NCBI GenBank assembly: GCA_937944105.1
Contig: CALDZP010000003.1
Location: 29,480 to 93,479, forward strand
Direction of reading: 5' to 3'
Origin: an uncultured Ignavibacteria bacterium
Lineage (GTDB): Bacteria > Bacteroidota > Ignavibacteria > Ch128b
DNA length: 64,000 nt
Part shown: positions 47,231-54,243 of the stretch, piece by piece
Position numbering within the stretch: position 1 is the stretch's first letter
How the letters are laid out: each line of letters opens with the position of its first letter
Translations under genes and position numbers: made by a program
Notes under the pieces: generated by a model
Told to the model about the DNA's origin: nothing
What the model saw: only the letters and a program-made list of their open reading frames with translations
Databases searched by the model: none

Positions 47231-47542
47231 TTAGTTTTTAGGTTCCCATTCTAATCCACCACAAGGAACATAGTTTTCAGTCGGATGTTCATCAAGTTTT
47301 GTACAAAGAACTGCTGTTTCATCAAAATAAAAACAACTGCTACAAAGTGTAGAATTAATAATCGGCGATGATTTTTCTTTAAATATATCATATTGAATCA
47401 AAGCTGGATGAATCACCACGACATAAATAGAAACAATTCCCAGTACCCACCAAGTTCCATAATCTATGTAGTAAAACAAAATCCACAATCCAGTAATTGT
47501 CAAAGCAAGGCGAACAAGCGCCCAAAAAACAATGTGTCCCAT
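47231..47542 (-). CDS. Hypothetical membrane protein with C-terminal Cys motif
   Basis: Two TM segments then 'CSSCFYFDETAVLCTKLDEHPTENYVPC'. Confidence 0.6.
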   Translation of the reverse strand: MGHIVFWALVRLALTITGLWILFYYIDYGTWWVLGIVSIYVVVIHPALIQYDIFKEKSSPIINSTLCSSCFYFDETAVLCTKLDEHPTENYVPCGGLEWEPKN

Positions 47543-47628: not shown

Positions 47629-49269
47629 TCATCTTAAATAGATCATTTTCTTGATTTTGCTCATTGCACCCAATTGTAATTTATAGTAATAAATTCCACC
47701 ACTTAAATTATAATCTTCTGCATCAAACACTATTTCATATTTTCCTGCTCTTGCAATTTGATCGAGAACTTTTACTATTTCTTTACCGAGTAAGTTATAA
47801 ATACTCAAAGAAATATTCTTTGAATCTTGCTGATCTACGATAGATTGTGGGATTGTAAAAACAATTTTTGTTCTTGAATTAAATGGATTAGGAAAATTCT
47901 GAAATAATTCAAATTGTATAGGTAATATTTCATTCTCAACTGATGTTAATAAGATGTTAAGTTTACGATGTGAACTTGGTAAGCCCCAACCCAAACCATT
48001 ATGTGCGGTTACTCTCCAAAAATAATCACCGCTCAAGTTATACCTTATAACATTTAGATTTAAGACAGTATCAACTAAAGTAGTATCAATTATTTTGTAA
48101 ATAAAACCAGAATCAGATGCAATTTCCAGCCTATAAAGATCAACATCAGGAATTGATTTTGACCATACAAAACTTATATCAACTGGATTAACCAGAATTG
48201 CTTGATCTTGAGGATAAATTAATTGTACCTGCGAAGGTAAATTCAGCGGCAAAGTTTTAAATTTATTTATGTTTGACCATTCACTAGCAGCATAACTTGA
48301 AATTGCTTTTACTCTCCAATAGTACCATGTTTCTCTAGCTAATTTCACCAGCGATTTAAATGTATCTACTAATGTAGTGTCAGAAAATATTTTATTTGCA
48401 AAAAGACTATCAGTTGCTACTTCCAAGCCATAATTGGTAGCGTTGGAAATTCTATTCCAGCTTAAATTTAAATTAACTGGTTGGTTTGTAGAGTTATCTG
48501 GAGGATACAATGGTGAGGGTGTTGCTAAAAATATATTTGCCTTTCTAATGGCAGCCTGGTAAACCTCTTTTGTGCTTTGATTCTGAATAAAGACGACAAC
48601 ATGAGAATTATAAAGTTTCCATGACGAATTCCAGTTGAAAATTCTTGTGAATGTCTTTGTTTCATTTGGATTGATTGTAAATACTTCACCAGTATGATTA
48701 GGATACATCTTTCTCATAACAAAATTATGAATCGGATCTCCATTTGTACCAGTATAATTAATATTAGATTCCACAATTGCAGTATGTAACACAAGATTTC
48801 CTGCGGGAATAGAATTATTATCTGCTGTAACCCTTATCGTTAAATTACCACCTTGCACAGAATCAACATTACCAAGGATTTTAATTTCGAACTGACTGGT
48901 AGTTATGATTGAATTTTGAATCAGAACAATCCAGTTACCGGCTGAAGAGGAACCATCAGCAATACCATTTACAATTCCTCTTGGTACATAGTTAGTGGAG
49001 TAATAATTTGTTCGTCCCTGATTTTCGGTGACATTTGCATGATAAAATGGATCATTACCTGGAGAAGGCCACCAAACATGATATTTAATAACCGCCACTC
49101 TGTCTTTATTATTGTAATTTTTTAACCAGTTATCAAAATATGGATTTTGAGATGCACAGGGTGGACACGTTGTGCTTGTAAAAATTTCGGCAAGAACTGT
49201 TCTTTCGAACGCATTTAAATTCAAGTGAACTAAAAACAAAAAAAATAGTGCAGTAAAAATTATTTTCAT
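47629..49269 (-). CDS. Omp28-related secreted protein with FnIII-like domains and T9SS sorting domain
   Basis: 'RTVLAEIFTSTTCPPCASQNPYFDNWL', FnIII-like 'YYWRVKAISSYAASEWSNINKFKT', C-terminal 'FQNFPNPFNSRTKIVFTIP...GGIYYYKLQLGAMSKIKKMIYLR'. Confidence 0.88.
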   Translation of the reverse strand: MKIIFTALFFLFLVHLNLNAFERTVLAEIFTSTTCPPCASQNPYFDNWLKNYNNKDRVAVIKYHVWWPSPGNDPFYHANVTENQGRTNYYSTNYVPRGIVNGIADGSSSAGNWIVLIQNSIITTSQFEIKILGNVDSVQGGNLTIRVTADNNSIPAGNLVLHTAIVESNINYTGTNGDPIHNFVMRKMYPNHTGEVFTINPNETKTFTRIFNWNSSWKLYNSHVVVFIQNQSTKEVYQAAIRKANIFLATPSPLYPPDNSTNQPVNLNLSWNRISNATNYGLEVATDSLFANKIFSDTTLVDTFKSLVKLARETWYYWRVKAISSYAASEWSNINKFKTLPLNLPSQVQLIYPQDQAILVNPVDISFVWSKSIPDVDLYRLEIASDSGFIYKIIDTTLVDTVLNLNVIRYNLSGDYFWRVTAHNGLGWGLPSSHRKLNILLTSVENEILPIQFELFQNFPNPFNSRTKIVFTIPQSIVDQQDSKNISLSIYNLLGKEIVKVLDQIARAGKYEIVFDAEDYNLSGGIYYYKLQLGAMSKIKKMIYLR

Positions 49270-49279
49270 AAAACCTCCA

Positions 49280-50911
49280 TTAAATATTTGAACTTAATGA
49301 AAGACGAAAGCCATCGAATGGTAAAACCTGTCGGCAGATTCCGTTTGAACAAACTGTTCCACCCCTCTCTTTGCCATAAGTGATAATAAGAGTATGATTT
49401 GTACTAATTCTCATACCTCCTTCTACAACTAACCAATTTTTTCGGTTTTCTTCTTCAAATTTATTAGTTGTAAACTCAAAACGAAATCCAAAAGTAATCA
49501 TAGAATTAAGTGTTGTCGATGCTGCTAAAAGATGATTATAATATTTTTCAGATTGTGGAAAATGAAACACCCATTGTGATTCAGAGATTAATTTCGAGCT
49601 TATCTTATCACTCCAAACATATTGAATTTCCAGTGGAAAAGTTGTCAATCGCAATGGTTGAATAGGATTGTAAAAATTCATTTGATCATTTGTTGTTTCG
49701 CTTCTTCTATTTATTCCAAATCTCAAATACGAATCTGAATTATTCGGGAAGAAATATTCCAGTTCAAGATATATTTCCCAGAAAGGTGAACGCAATTTGT
49801 TTAATGATGGAACTAAATCGCTACCTATTTTTTTCTTTTCATATTGAAAAGTTGTTTGGTTTAATTCAAAATCAAAATGTCTTGATGCCATTGCAAAATT
49901 TGCATTGAGATTTACTCCATCGGAGAGATTAAAAAAAGCATCAAATTGAAAACCAACTTCATCATTAAAATCAACAACATGAGGATTTCGTTGCGTCAGG
50001 GAAAAAAGATGTTCTTTATGAACAATCGGTGGATTTTGAAATGGTAATGTTCGGGTAGGTCTAAATGGATCTGATTTTCTTAAAGGATCAACAATATCAA
50101 ATCTATAATCTTTGAATTCAAAAGTTACTCCAAATCCTTCATTTGAATAAGATAATGATGTATATAAACCTGAACCTTTCGCAGTATCTTTGCCTCCCAG
50201 ACTTGTTCTTTTAATTGCATAAGAGACAAATAAATCTAATGACCCCAGTCTTGACTTGATAAAAAATTCTGGGATGTTTACCTCAATCGTATCAAATTGT
50301 GAAATCAAACCTGGCAATTTTCCTTCTGACCATACATAGTTTGTTCCCAGAGTTAAATTCTTAACAGGAGAAATTTCAATTGAACCAGCACGAATTTTAT
50401 ATTTCTCAATCCTGTTAGTTAACAAATAAAGACTTAATGGTTCAAAGAAATTTAAGTCGCCTCCAACTAATTGAGCCCTTAAAAAATCGTTTTCATACTT
50501 AACTCTGATACCCTCCATTCCATTATCAAATGCAAGATTACGATTCTCAAAAAGATTAAGAGAGAGACCCCTTGCAAAAAGAGTATAAAAATCACCTGCA
50601 CGAAAATTTAATCCATAAGATTCAAACTCAACATATTTCTTTTTTAGTCCAACAAAATCAAGTCCATATTCAGGAGGTTTACTGTATTCAATTCGAAAGC
50701 CTACTGTTGTTTTTGGAATAAAAATTCTGACATCTGAAAAATTTTCGAAATATTCTTTCTTCTGTTTTTTTCTGCTTTCACCAATAAACTCAAAACCCTT
50801 ACCAAATTTCAAAGAGTTAAAGATAGAAGTAGCTATCTCTTGAGATAATAAAAACTTTGATGAAATTAATAAGAAAAATAAGATGAATTTTAATTTTAGA
50901 TTGAACAACAT
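49280..50911 (-). CDS. Outer-membrane beta-barrel protein, DUF6029-like
   Basis: Signal peptide, long beta-strand-rich protein, 'FRAGDFYTLFARGLSLNLFENRNLAFDNGMEGIRVKYENDFLRAQLVGG'. Confidence 0.7.
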   Translation of the reverse strand: MLFNLKLKFILFFLLISSKFLLSQEIATSIFNSLKFGKGFEFIGESRKKQKKEYFENFSDVRIFIPKTTVGFRIEYSKPPEYGLDFVGLKKKYVEFESYGLNFRAGDFYTLFARGLSLNLFENRNLAFDNGMEGIRVKYENDFLRAQLVGGDLNFFEPLSLYLLTNRIEKYKIRAGSIEISPVKNLTLGTNYVWSEGKLPGLISQFDTIEVNIPEFFIKSRLGSLDLFVSYAIKRTSLGGKDTAKGSGLYTSLSYSNEGFGVTFEFKDYRFDIVDPLRKSDPFRPTRTLPFQNPPIVHKEHLFSLTQRNPHVVDFNDEVGFQFDAFFNLSDGVNLNANFAMASRHFDFELNQTTFQYEKKKIGSDLVPSLNKLRSPFWEIYLELEYFFPNNSDSYLRFGINRRSETTNDQMNFYNPIQPLRLTTFPLEIQYVWSDKISSKLISESQWVFHFPQSEKYYNHLLAASTTLNSMITFGFRFEFTTNKFEEENRKNWLVVEGGMRISTNHTLIITYGKERGGTVCSNGICRQVLPFDGFRLSLSSNI

Positions 50912-50929
50912 ACTCCTCCTGTTAAAAAA

Positions 50930-51424
50930 TTAATTCTTTTTGCTGAGAATGTTTTCCCAATCCTTTATTATTTCCTTTTCATCACCAGGTACATAACTAT
51001 TTCTAATTTTTACTATTTCACCTTTTTGATTAATCAATAAAGAATAAGGCAAGTTTTTACCATTAAACTTTTGAAAAACCTCCGAATTAGGATCTAACAA
51101 AACATCAAACGAAAATTTCTGTGAAGCTACGAACGATTTTACTTTAGCCATACTTTTAGGAGAATCGATATTAATTGCAAGTAACTTAAGCCCCTTAAGT
51201 TTATACTGCTCATAAATCTGATTCAATACTTTCAATTCAGCACGACATGGTGCACACCAGATAGCCCAGAAATTTAAATAAACAGGACCTTCTTTTAATA
51301 ACTCGTAGAGCGAAACTTTTTCACCATTTATAGATTCGAGCTTAAAATCTGGAACAACTTTTTGTTGACCCCTTAAAGATAACGAGAAGAATATAAAAGA
51401 AAGAAAAAATATCATAAGTTTCAT
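50930..51424 (-). CDS. TlpA-like thiol-disulfide oxidoreductase
   Basis: 'VYLNFWAIWCAPCRAELKVLNQIYEQYK', 'NLPYSLLINQKGEIV', signal peptide. Confidence 0.93.
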   Translation of the reverse strand: MKLMIFFLSFIFFSLSLRGQQKVVPDFKLESINGEKVSLYELLKEGPVYLNFWAIWCAPCRAELKVLNQIYEQYKLKGLKLLAINIDSPKSMAKVKSFVASQKFSFDVLLDPNSEVFQKFNGKNLPYSLLINQKGEIVKIRNSYVPGDEKEIIKDWENILSKKN

Positions 51425-51452
51425 GTATCACCTCATTTTAATACAAGTATTT

Positions 51453-52859
51453 TCATTTCAAATAAACCATTTTTTTTATTGCCGAAAAATTTTTTGTCTT
51501 CAAATGATAAAAATAAATTCCGCTCGGTAAATCACTTTTTGAGGTTAATTCTGAAAAATTTAAATGATGTTTGTAAACTCCTGAATCTAAACTTTCGAAG
51601 TTAATCTTATAAATTATCTCACCAAGAAAGTTATATACACTTAATTCAACAATTGAATTTTCTGCTACACCATAAACTATAGTTGTGATTGAATTAAATG
51701 GATTGGGAAAATTTTGAGATAAAAAAAATCCATCTGTTTGAATGTGTGAATCTGAAACATCTGTTATTAATGTGGTAAAGTACCATATTTCAGATGAAGA
51801 ACTCAATCCAGAAAAACTATTAGCCATCACTTTCCAGAAATAAGTTTTATTTGGAAATAAATTATCGGAGACATAAAATGTGTCAAAAATTGTTTGATTT
51901 ACTACAGGATTAGAAAAGCTTGAATCTTCAGCAACTAACAATGAATAATTTTCAGCACCTTGAGAAACAAACCACTTAAACTCAACAGGCAACGAAACAC
52001 CCGAAGCCCCCTTTGGCGGGGAATTCAAAACTGGTGGCAATGGAGGATTTGACTTTGTGGTAAAACTCCAAATTTGAGAAAATAAACTCCAGCCAGCATT
52101 GTTTTTTGCTCGTACTCTCCAGTAATATTTTGTTTGAGATTGTAGTTGAACAGTTTTTTGATTTGTTTGAATTGTTGAATCATTTAATACTAAACTGGAA
52201 AAATTTGAATCAGTTGAAATTTGAAGATGATAATTTGTAGAACCATTAACCTGTGTCCATTTAAGTAGCGGATTTATCACTACATTAACTGAACCATTTG
52301 CTGGTAAAATTAAATCTGGTGGTGAGGGTGGAAGTTGACCTGTAAGATTATAGGTAATTATCATTTTCAGTTTATTTATGATGTTAGGATTTGTTACAAC
52401 TAAACTATCTTTACCAATCATATTTTTATTGACGACAATTCCCCCAAAAAAATCCTGGAGAAGTCCAGAGACGCCCGAAGGTAAATTCCATGAGATTGTA
52501 ATTGTTGTACCACTTCCAATTTGATATCTTAATTCATGAATTCGTTGTCCTTTTGTTGTATCTGTTCCATTTCTATAATCTTTTAATACACCTTCACCGA
52601 GTTCTGGAATATCTATATCATAACCTACAAATCGTGCATCAAAAATACCTGAGGGTGGAATAGGAGGTTGTTCCATTTCATCAAGATGGGTATCTATTCC
52701 GTTTGTTGCTGTTGGATCAAGTCCGAAATACAAAACCCTGCTACGAAATCCATCAGAAACATTTAATGGAATATTTATTTGTGGTATTATTTGAGCAATC
52801 AAGTTAGCAGATAAAAAGAAAATAACCAGAAAAATATATTTCAGTTTCATGACTTCCAT
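51453..52859 (-). CDS. Secreted FnIII-like protein with T9SS sorting domain
   Basis: Two 'YYWRVRAKNNAGWSLFSQIWSFTT'-type repeats, C-terminal 'SQNFPNPFNSITTIVYGV...GIYFYHLKTKNFSAIKKMVYLK'. Confidence 0.85.
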   Translation of the reverse strand: MEVMKLKYIFLVIFFLSANLIAQIIPQINIPLNVSDGFRSRVLYFGLDPTATNGIDTHLDEMEQPPIPPSGIFDARFVGYDIDIPELGEGVLKDYRNGTDTTKGQRIHELRYQIGSGTTITISWNLPSGVSGLLQDFFGGIVVNKNMIGKDSLVVTNPNIINKLKMIITYNLTGQLPPSPPDLILPANGSVNVVINPLLKWTQVNGSTNYHLQISTDSNFSSLVLNDSTIQTNQKTVQLQSQTKYYWRVRAKNNAGWSLFSQIWSFTTKSNPPLPPVLNSPPKGASGVSLPVEFKWFVSQGAENYSLLVAEDSSFSNPVVNQTIFDTFYVSDNLFPNKTYFWKVMANSFSGLSSSSEIWYFTTLITDVSDSHIQTDGFFLSQNFPNPFNSITTIVYGVAENSIVELSVYNFLGEIIYKINFESLDSGVYKHHLNFSELTSKSDLPSGIYFYHLKTKNFSAIKKMVYLK

Positions 52860-52895: not shown

Positions 52896-53564
52896 TTACT
52901 TTCCCGATTTATTTAATAAGCTTCTAAATAATATTTTTAACTCACTTAAATTATTCAAAACAGGAACTCTACATTTATCAAGTTCTTTTTTTGATTGATG
53001 CCCTGAAGAAACTAAAATACAATCACAACCAAGTGCAAGGGATACTTCATAATCATGAACTGTATCGCCAATTAATATCACTTCATCTGAATTCAAATTA
53101 AGAATTTTCATCAATTTTTTGCCAAGGTTTATTTTACTTTCAGCATAAATATTATCAAGTCCAACGATATTCTTAAAATACTTATCAAGGTTATATTCTT
53201 TCACAATTTCAATTAAAGTGTTTTGAGAATAAGCTGAAAGGATTGATTGTTCGATTCCTGTTTCATAAAAATAATTAAGAATCTCAATTGCATTTTCAGC
53301 TAAACCAGCCTCATATTTTTTACCCTCATATCTCTCCATCCATTCCTTACCAATTTTGAAAAAATCCAGCTTATTTAGATCAAATCCTACCCTTCGATAA
53401 TATTCGACGACAGGGAAAGTAAAAATTTCACGATACCTATCTTTTGTAATTCTCTGAAGTCCATATTTCTCAAGTAACCAATTTATATTATCAACACACA
53501 GATCAACATCATCCAAAAGAGTTCCATTCCAGTCCCAGATTATGTGATTCACATTTTTAATCAT
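52896..53564 (-). CDS. HAD-superfamily hydrolase (phosphoglycolate phosphatase-like)
   Basis: 'IIWDWNGTLLDDVDLCVDNINWLL', 'VILIGDTVHDYEVSLALGCDCILVSSGHQ'. Confidence 0.9.
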   Translation of the reverse strand: MIKNVNHIIWDWNGTLLDDVDLCVDNINWLLEKYGLQRITKDRYREIFTFPVVEYYRRVGFDLNKLDFFKIGKEWMERYEGKKYEAGLAENAIEILNYFYETGIEQSILSAYSQNTLIEIVKEYNLDKYFKNIVGLDNIYAESKINLGKKLMKILNLNSDEVILIGDTVHDYEVSLALGCDCILVSSGHQSKKELDKCRVPVLNNLSELKILFRSLLNKSGK

Positions 53565-53588
53565 CAGTTCAATTATTTATTTAATGTT

Positions 53589-53939
53589 TTATCCCTTTTT
53601 GATGATCATTGCAACTTCTCTTGCCACATTTGAATTGTATTCAAAAGCAAGTTTTTTATGATTTATTAAATCTATTATCGTTCCAATGAAGCAAATTCCA
53701 GCTGTAAGTAAATAAAGTATTCCCATTCCAATTTGATTGAGAATAAACCGATGAATTCCACTAATACCAAGAAACCCCACCAGTGCAGTTAACAAAATTA
53801 GCATTGGTTCTTTTCTTCTTGTTCTATAAATATTTGAAAATTGTAACAGCTGTTGTTCATCGAATCCACTAACCAGATTCTGAACAAACATTAATTCTTC
53901 ACCCTCAAGTTCGGGAAGGTAGTTAAGTATATTTGACAT
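53589..53939 (-). CDS. TM2 domain-containing protein
   Basis: 'GFLGISGIHRFILNQIGMGILYLLTAGICFIGTIIDLI'. Confidence 0.9.
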   Translation of the reverse strand: MSNILNYLPELEGEELMFVQNLVSGFDEQQLLQFSNIYRTRRKEPMLILLTALVGFLGISGIHRFILNQIGMGILYLLTAGICFIGTIIDLINHKKLAFEYNSNVAREVAMIIKKG

Positions 53940-54243
53940 TTCGTTCTCTCCTGATATTTTTTATTAAAGTTAAGATACGATAAGAAATTACTATTAGTGC
54001 GAAAATCCCAAGTGGATGAGTTTTTAAAGAATTAATTATTTGAAAATTAAAGAGGTAAGATATAGATTTTCCAAGTCCACAACCAGGACACCAATTAAAT
54101 CCGAGATGTTTTACTGGACAGAATGACAAATCAGTTTGGGCTAAACTATTGATAAAAAGATAAATTAGACCCATTGTCCAGAAAATCAATTCGATATTAT
54201 TATTAATGAGTTTGAAAATCTTTTTAAATAATCCTTGCATCAT
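53923..54243 (-). CDS. DUF2752 domain-containing membrane protein
   Basis: 'CPVKHLGFNWCPGCGLGKSISYLFNFQIINSLKTHPLGIFALI'. Confidence 0.9.
   Translation of the reverse strand: MMQGLFKKIFKLINNNIELIFWTMGLIYLFINSLAQTDLSFCPVKHLGFNWCPGCGLGKSISYLFNFQIINSLKTHPLGIFALIVISYRILTLIKNIRRERNVKYT

Follow-up and report, generated by a model that had tools for sequence, protein, structure and literature searches.

The window analysed here is a 64,000-nucleotide stretch from the genome of an uncultured Ignavibacteria bacterium (GenBank assembly GCA_937944105.1, contig CALDZP010000003.1, positions 29,480 to 93,479 of the forward strand; 2.74 Mb, 99% complete). It contains a cluster of four co-directional genes, three of which encode a periplasmic TlpA-like oxidoreductase, an outer-membrane β-barrel of the family DUF6029, and a secreted thioredoxin-fold protein of the Omp28 family. 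The conservation of these three genes and their possible function in thiol-disulfide exchange at the outer membrane are the subject of this report.

The gene cluster and its conserved core

The cluster comprises the following open reading frames (ORFs) and motifs, which include two products sorted by the type IX secretion system (T9SS):

51453–52859, minus strand: FnIII/T9SS-sorted secreted protein without cysteines, 468 amino acids (Pfam Por_Secre_tail 31.1, Ig/FnIII 34.6, and fn3 29.7 bits)
50930–51424, minus strand: TlpA/ResA-like periplasmic thiol-disulfide oxidoreductase, 164 amino acids (Pfam AhpC-TSA 86.9 and Redoxin 75.3 bits)
51245–51256, minus strand: TlpA active site CAPC (in WCAPC), residues 57–60 (from the sequence)
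49280–50911, minus strand: DUF6029 outer-membrane β-barrel, predicted 24 strands, 543 amino acids (Pfam DUF6029 132.3 bits; AlphaFold2)
49334–49351, minus strand: CxxG[VI]C pair of the DUF6029 barrel, C521 and C526 (conservation and AlphaFold2 strands)
47629–49269, minus strand: Omp28-family secreted thioredoxin-fold protein, 546 amino acids (Pfam Omp28 65.6 and Por_Secre_tail 31.1 bits)
49156–49167, minus strand: Omp28 CPPC motif, residues 35–38 (aligned Omp28 columns)

This arrangement agrees with the first-pass annotation, which was made from the DNA alone and had described four adjacent minus-strand genes with short gaps, encoding two T9SS-sorted products (one with a TCPPC motif), a DUF6029-like barrel, and a TlpA-like protein with a WCAPC motif. 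The four ORFs occupy exactly positions 47629–52859, with intergenic gaps of 28, 18, and 10 nt in the ORF listing of the window. The Pfam assignments of all four proteins exceed the curated cut-offs, and both secreted products carry a Por_Secre_tail domain (cut-off 27 bits) in a genome that also encodes SprA (SprA_N, 151 bits). The cysteines are located at residues 35 and 38 of Omp28 and at residues 57 and 60 of TlpA. The latter protein also possesses a signal peptide, as judged by inspection; its best match among the NCBIfam models is ResA (NF002854), with a score of 100.1 bits that falls below the cut-off of 170 bits. The same genome encodes DsbD (189.6 bits) in a frame of 590 amino acids.

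There is very strong evidence that the linkage of TlpA, DUF6029, and Omp28, which had been proposed for a gene-neighbourhood check, is conserved across Bacteroidota and into Neomarinimicrobiota; a lack of linkage, which would have spoken against the first-pass proposal, was thus not encountered. Among 297 genomes of the phylum Bacteroidota sampled for co-occurrence, strong matches to DUF6029 are present in 59 (80 if weak matches are included) and matches to Omp28 in 62. The two families occur together in 58 genomes, i.e., in 58 of the 59 with a strong DUF6029 match, and singly in 1 and 4 genomes, respectively (Fisher p 1e-55, a nominal value since the genomes are related). At 50 of the 60 strong loci in this set, Omp28 is encoded within 5 kb of DUF6029, usually on the same strand and approximately 280–440 bp downstream (measured between the domain matches).

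Loci were gathered around 60 strong and 19 weak DUF6029 matches and complemented by 80 loci from a scan of genome contigs of Ignavibacteria, Melioribacteraceae, Balneolia, and Neomarinimicrobiota; the non-redundant set comprises 146 loci, 136 of which have sufficient room upstream to test for adjacency of TlpA. The TlpA gene adjoins DUF6029 in 122 of these (116 on the same strand, 5 on the opposite strand, and 1 fused), and most of the linked proteins possess a WCxPC motif. The median gap between the two genes is 3 nt, and 39 of 130 pairs overlap by 1 or 4 nt, which is the usual sign of translational coupling. Because there are only 10 redoxin matches in the 2.7 Mb of the source genome, we estimate that adjacency would arise by chance in less than 1% of the loci. 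The natural fusion (L039:6030–8033, plus strand; 667 amino acids) carries a TlpA domain with a WCVPC motif at the N-terminus of a DUF6029 barrel and is accompanied by a divergently oriented Omp28 gene; in this arrangement, TlpA precedes the barrel at its N-terminus, on the periplasmic side, which supports a joint action of the two proteins.

The FnIII/T9SS gene does not share this conservation. Its product is devoid of cysteines, and its N-terminal domain recurs at the same position only in the two closest relatives (L112 and L113); therefore, the gene is not part of the core. Of the four-gene set put forward in the first-pass annotation, TlpA, DUF6029, and Omp28 are retained as a three-gene core, with the FnIII/T9SS gene as a lineage-specific neighbour.

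The DUF6029 barrel and its cysteine pair

The barrel protein is a clear member of DUF6029 (PF19494; cut-off 27 bits), matching positions 49–537 of the 538 positions of the model; the nearest homologs stem from metagenome-assembled genomes of Ignavibacteria/Ignavibacteriales (65% and 51% identity). The motif C-x-x-G-[VI]-C (CSNGIC, residues 521–526, in the window) represents the sole conserved cysteine pair of the family. Of 139 full-length proteins, among them divergent members of other classes and of a second phylum, 138 contain it. In the one exception (L057; G023:C49), the gene is broken at an ambiguous base by a frameshift, and the C-terminal part that the protein lacks is matched downstream in a different frame, which probably reflects an assembly error. 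In most members, the distances of the two cysteines from the C-terminus are 18 and 23 residues; the mature barrel often has no others. The first-pass annotation had noted neither this pair nor the lack of cysteines in the FnIII/T9SS protein.

An AlphaFold2 model based on 67 sequences (pLDDT 92.6, pTM 0.86) predicts 24 long strands, with loops of 3–47 residues between odd and even strands and turns of 2–7 residues between even and odd strands. Together with a signal peptide, an even number of strands, and the barrel fold, this is consistent with an outer-membrane β-barrel. Outer-membrane barrels usually combine long outer loops with short inner turns; the predicted lengths therefore place the cysteine pair on the outer side, in the last extracellular loop. 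There, it is located on a short hairpin (strands 518–522 and 525–529) between strands 506–515 and 532–542. A direct sequence match for DUF6029 in the Protein Data Bank was not found; the closest folds are outer-membrane barrels, namely ushers and TonB-dependent receptors, all with TM-scores below 0.5.

Partner thioredoxins and genomic neighbours

The Omp28 protein (PF11551; cut-off 34.9 bits) consists of a signal peptide, a thioredoxin domain with the CPPC motif, a β domain, two Ig/FnIII-like domains, and a T9SS sorting tail. In its AlphaFold2 model (pLDDT 90.4), the protein adopts a thioredoxin fold, and, as in thioredoxins, the CxxC motif opens a helix (36–51), here the first long one behind the signal peptide. 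The model matches the structure of HBP35 of Porphyromonas gingivalis (5y1a; E 9.7e-12, TMt 0.61); the higher-ranked matches are FnIII-domain proteins. In the alignment of 117 Omp28 proteins, the two columns of the motif are occupied by cysteine in 116 and 117 sequences, respectively.

The export signals of Omp28 differ among the copies. The copy in the window lacks a lipobox and falls short of the lipoprotein subfamily NF033782 (53.8 vs. 150 bits). Among the Omp28 proteins scoring above 100 bits, simple patterns assign a lipobox alone to 51 and a T9SS tail alone to 48; none has both, and 21 have neither. Because these different signals are attached to the same domain, Omp28 would act at the cell surface or extracellularly. 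The first-pass annotation had considered the barrel as an anchor or transporter of Omp28. The anchoring is provided by the lipobox or T9SS tail of Omp28 itself, and the barrel, rather than being only an anchor, probably takes part as a thiol partner in its own right.

A dependence of the module on the T9SS was considered but not adopted. SprA is present in 79 of the 80 genomes with DUF6029, compared with 229 of 297 overall, but the comparison is confounded by families that lack the T9SS. One genome without a match to SprA (G230) carries the module with a lipoprotein Omp28. This protein (L053:3390–5459, minus strand; 689 amino acids), which is encoded downstream of DUF6029, has two matches to the Omp28 domain.

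The gene downstream of DUF6029 usually encodes a thioredoxin, which is either an Omp28 with a CxxC motif, a CPHC-type protein, or a T9SS-sorted thioredoxin of Neomarinimicrobiota. CPHC thioredoxins replace Omp28 in loci L092–L109, most of which include a T9SS-tailed copy, and T9SS-tailed AhpC/TSA thioredoxins replace it in the Neomarinimicrobiota loci L184–L187. Three of the latter have a TGA codon at the active site:

L184:2019, L185:2338, and L186:10284: T9SS-tailed thioredoxin of Neomarinimicrobiota with an in-frame TGA in place of the codon for the first active-site cysteine

All three read W-TGA-P-S-C, and the frame remains homologous to the WCVPC protein of L187. A hairpin follows 3′ of the TGA; of the two that were folded, it stands out from shuffled sequences in one (z −2.95) and has a z of −0.74 in the other. 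SelB is present above cut-off in all three genomes. The proteins are thus likely unannotated selenoproteins, and selenocysteine at the active-site position would be good evidence that the surface partner performs redox catalysis. They are AhpC/TSA-type thioredoxins and differ in this respect from the Omp28-related selenoprotein family NF045500, which combines an Omp28-type protein with selenocysteine and which the Omp28 protein in the window matches weakly, with 58.5 bits (cut-off 200). Two candidates for selenocysteine in Omp28 itself were rejected: in G031, the TGA of the match is, by its coordinates, the stop codon with which the L073 ORF itself ends, and the codon in G041 is TAA, which provides no evidence of selenocysteine.

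Many loci encode a further T9SS-tailed protein of 236–273 amino acids beside TlpA, either in the same operon or divergently:

L045:5120–5860, L048:5102–5812, L065:8542–9252, and others: PorA-like small T9SS-tailed proteins

The N-terminal domain of these proteins has a cysteine pair that is invariant in 18 aligned sequences. The domain matches PorA of P. gingivalis (crystal structure 6kjk; E 2e-4), with the cysteine pairs aligned. PorA influences the expression of the T9SS via PorXY-SigP, and its own route to the surface is independent of the T9SS translocon; PorA has been studied as a regulator, and a redox role is not reported (PMC7712824). In P. gingivalis, PorA is PG2172 and thus numbered next to the Omp28 lipoprotein PG2173 (PMC9722745). 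The recurrence of PorA-like proteins beside TlpA–DUF6029 suggests that PorA of P. gingivalis belongs to a thiol-linked locus, a link given for this species only by the locus numbers. A search with a 55-residue fragment of PorA yielded 0 matches in 395 sampled genomes, a result that says nothing about P. gingivalis. Identity with the tapA-tapB-tapC cluster of P. gingivalis was ruled out, because TapC (PG2100) is a C-terminal-domain cargo protein and not a DUF6029 protein.

As judged from the gene spacing alone, the cluster in the window may form a transcription unit. The ORFs of DUF6029 and Omp28 are preceded by Shine-Dalgarno-like motifs (GGAGG/AGGAGG), and a scan for promoters and terminators gave no signal beyond shuffled expectation. 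Genes encoding a HAD hydrolase, a TM2 protein, and a DUF2752 protein (52896–54243, minus strand) lead co-directionally into the cluster with short gaps or an overlap, so the gene run may start upstream, at position 54243, an extension that the first-pass annotation had not considered. Relatives of all three are present in L112, and those of TM2 and DUF2752 also in L133. Directly downstream of Omp28 (47231–47542, minus strand) lies the gene of a membrane protein of 103 amino acids with a four-cysteine C-terminal segment (CSSC...C...C), whose relatives are encoded close to the corresponding locus in L081, L145, and L154. Genes for the C-terminal part of phosphoglucose isomerase and for NADH dehydrogenase subunit H, which recur upstream in Ignavibacteria, are housekeeping genes and were judged to be mere neighbours.

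A putative outer-membrane module for thiol-disulfide exchange

The first-pass annotation had proposed a dedicated extracytoplasmic thiol-redox module. With three core genes instead of four, this proposal is well supported and probably correct for a module acting at the cell surface, as indicated by the invariant cysteine pair of the barrel, the thioredoxin fold and CxxC motif of Omp28, the fusion of TlpA with the barrel, and the selenocysteine variants. The best overall explanation, to which we assign a probability of about 0.5, is a three-gene module for thiol-disulfide exchange at the outer membrane. In the preferred but unproven mechanism, whose chances we consider slightly below even, a relay would extend from DsbD via TlpA and the barrel to the surface thioredoxin. 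Periplasmic TlpA, probably recharged by DsbD, would exchange dithiol and disulfide with the cysteine pair of the 24-stranded barrel, which would require that the hairpin in the last extracellular loop is accessible through the wide lumen. For the surface thioredoxin, i.e., Omp28 or a CPHC or selenocysteine replacement, the barrel would then keep the CxxC or UxxC motif in a working redox state, allowing this thioredoxin to reduce or isomerise surface proteins. More tentatively, DUF6029 would be the first outer-membrane barrel to pass reducing or oxidising power in the form of thiols across this membrane, and hence the counterpart of DsbD/CcdA that powers surface thioredoxins in Bacteroidota and Neomarinimicrobiota. 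The linkage of the genes, the invariance of the motif, the alternative anchoring signals, the TGA variants, the fusion of TlpA with the barrel, and the presence of DsbD in the genome are directly observed, and the thioredoxin fold and barrel topology are predicted; the surface location in the source organism, the redox activity of the barrel pair, the direct contacts, and the outward flow of electrons are inferred.

Several observations weigh against such a relay. The predicted geometry is its main weakness: with the pair on the extracellular side, TlpA would have to reach through the lumen or act before the barrel is inserted. TlpA is not adjacent to DUF6029 in 14 of 136 loci, and in 26 of 145 loci no surface thioredoxin was found, although several of these are explained by ORF calling, selenocysteine, or contig ends. 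The CxxC motif occurs also in 39 of 40 Omp28 copies unlinked to DUF6029; this control rules it out as a special mark of the linked copies. Being common to the entire family, the motif alone is no pointer to DUF6029. Moreover, the invariant pair of the barrel could be a structural disulfide. It would then lock the last loop, with TlpA as a dedicated reductase or isomerase during the periplasmic folding of the barrel and Omp28, and no electrons would cross the membrane. The cross-hairpin position of the cysteines with an invariant glycine in the turn suits a disulfide, the periplasm has access to the barrel until it is inserted, and the TlpA and barrel genes are translationally coupled and in one case fused. 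However, it would be unusual to devote a reductase to one simple disulfide, and this explanation, which we regard as unlikely, does not account for the conserved neighbouring surface thioredoxin or for the replacement of Omp28 by other thioredoxins and selenoproteins.

The usher-like size of the 24-stranded barrel raises the alternative of an export channel for a small thioredoxin or PorA-like protein, whose cysteines TlpA would hold in the reduced state. Ushers are indeed among the nearest folds, PorA of P. gingivalis is exposed at the surface independently of the T9SS translocon (PMC7712824), and PorA-like genes with their invariant cysteines adjoin TlpA–DUF6029 in many loci. The fold matches are nevertheless weak and extend to TonB-dependent receptors, many Omp28 partners already have an export route via their T9SS tail, and the cluster in the window lacks a PorA-like gene, which renders an export function improbable. 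Least probable is a channel for polysaccharides or small molecules with thioredoxins as loosely related neighbours. It draws on the strong similarity of Wzi-barrel homologues to DUF6029 detected with HHpred and on the polysaccharide role suggested in this context by the one paper in the searched literature that names DUF6029 (PMC9603273). It conflicts with the recurrence of TlpA and surface thioredoxins in the neighbourhoods of the 146 loci, which were not scanned systematically for polysaccharide-export genes, and with the invariance of the cysteine pair.

The three-gene exchange module suggests an outer-membrane, perhaps trans-membrane, system of thiol chemistry that has not been described before. 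The titles and abstracts of the literature on Omp28 and thioredoxins and on TlpA and the T9SS contain no apparent account of it, and a search for literature joining Omp28 with selenoproteins found none; both are weak absences, with subscription papers mostly outside the coverage. To our knowledge, there is no described electron source for surface-exposed or T9SS-exported thioredoxins, such as HBP35, beyond the outer membrane. The module provides a candidate, namely a barrel that has a cysteine pair as its sole conserved chemical feature and is genetically tied to periplasmic and surface thioredoxins. This offers a concrete functional hypothesis for DUF6029 and opens a general question, i.e., whether thiol redox equivalents need haems or diffusible carriers to cross an outer membrane, to a test by two point mutations.

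Several known systems share features with the module, and those nearest in function are ScsB–TlpA–PprX and CcdA–Etrx–MsrAB2. HBP35 of P. gingivalis is likewise a surface-displayed protein with a thioredoxin motif and a T9SS tail, and a structural match to the Omp28 protein in the window, but belongs to a different family (5y1a; PMC3120885). The ScsB–TlpA–PprX system, in which a periplasmic TlpA with a dedicated partner is reduced by a member of the DsbD family, is confined to the periplasm and has no outer-membrane or surface component (Cho et al. 2012, as summarised in PMC5403849). The CcdA–Etrx1/2–MsrAB2 system of Streptococcus pneumoniae operates in a Gram-positive bacterium, with neither an outer membrane nor a barrel, and, unlike the proposed module, has a known target (MsrAB2); it resembles the proposed module in that surface lipoproteins with a thioredoxin fold are supplied with electrons by a CcdA-type membrane protein and act on extracellular targets (PMC3914529).
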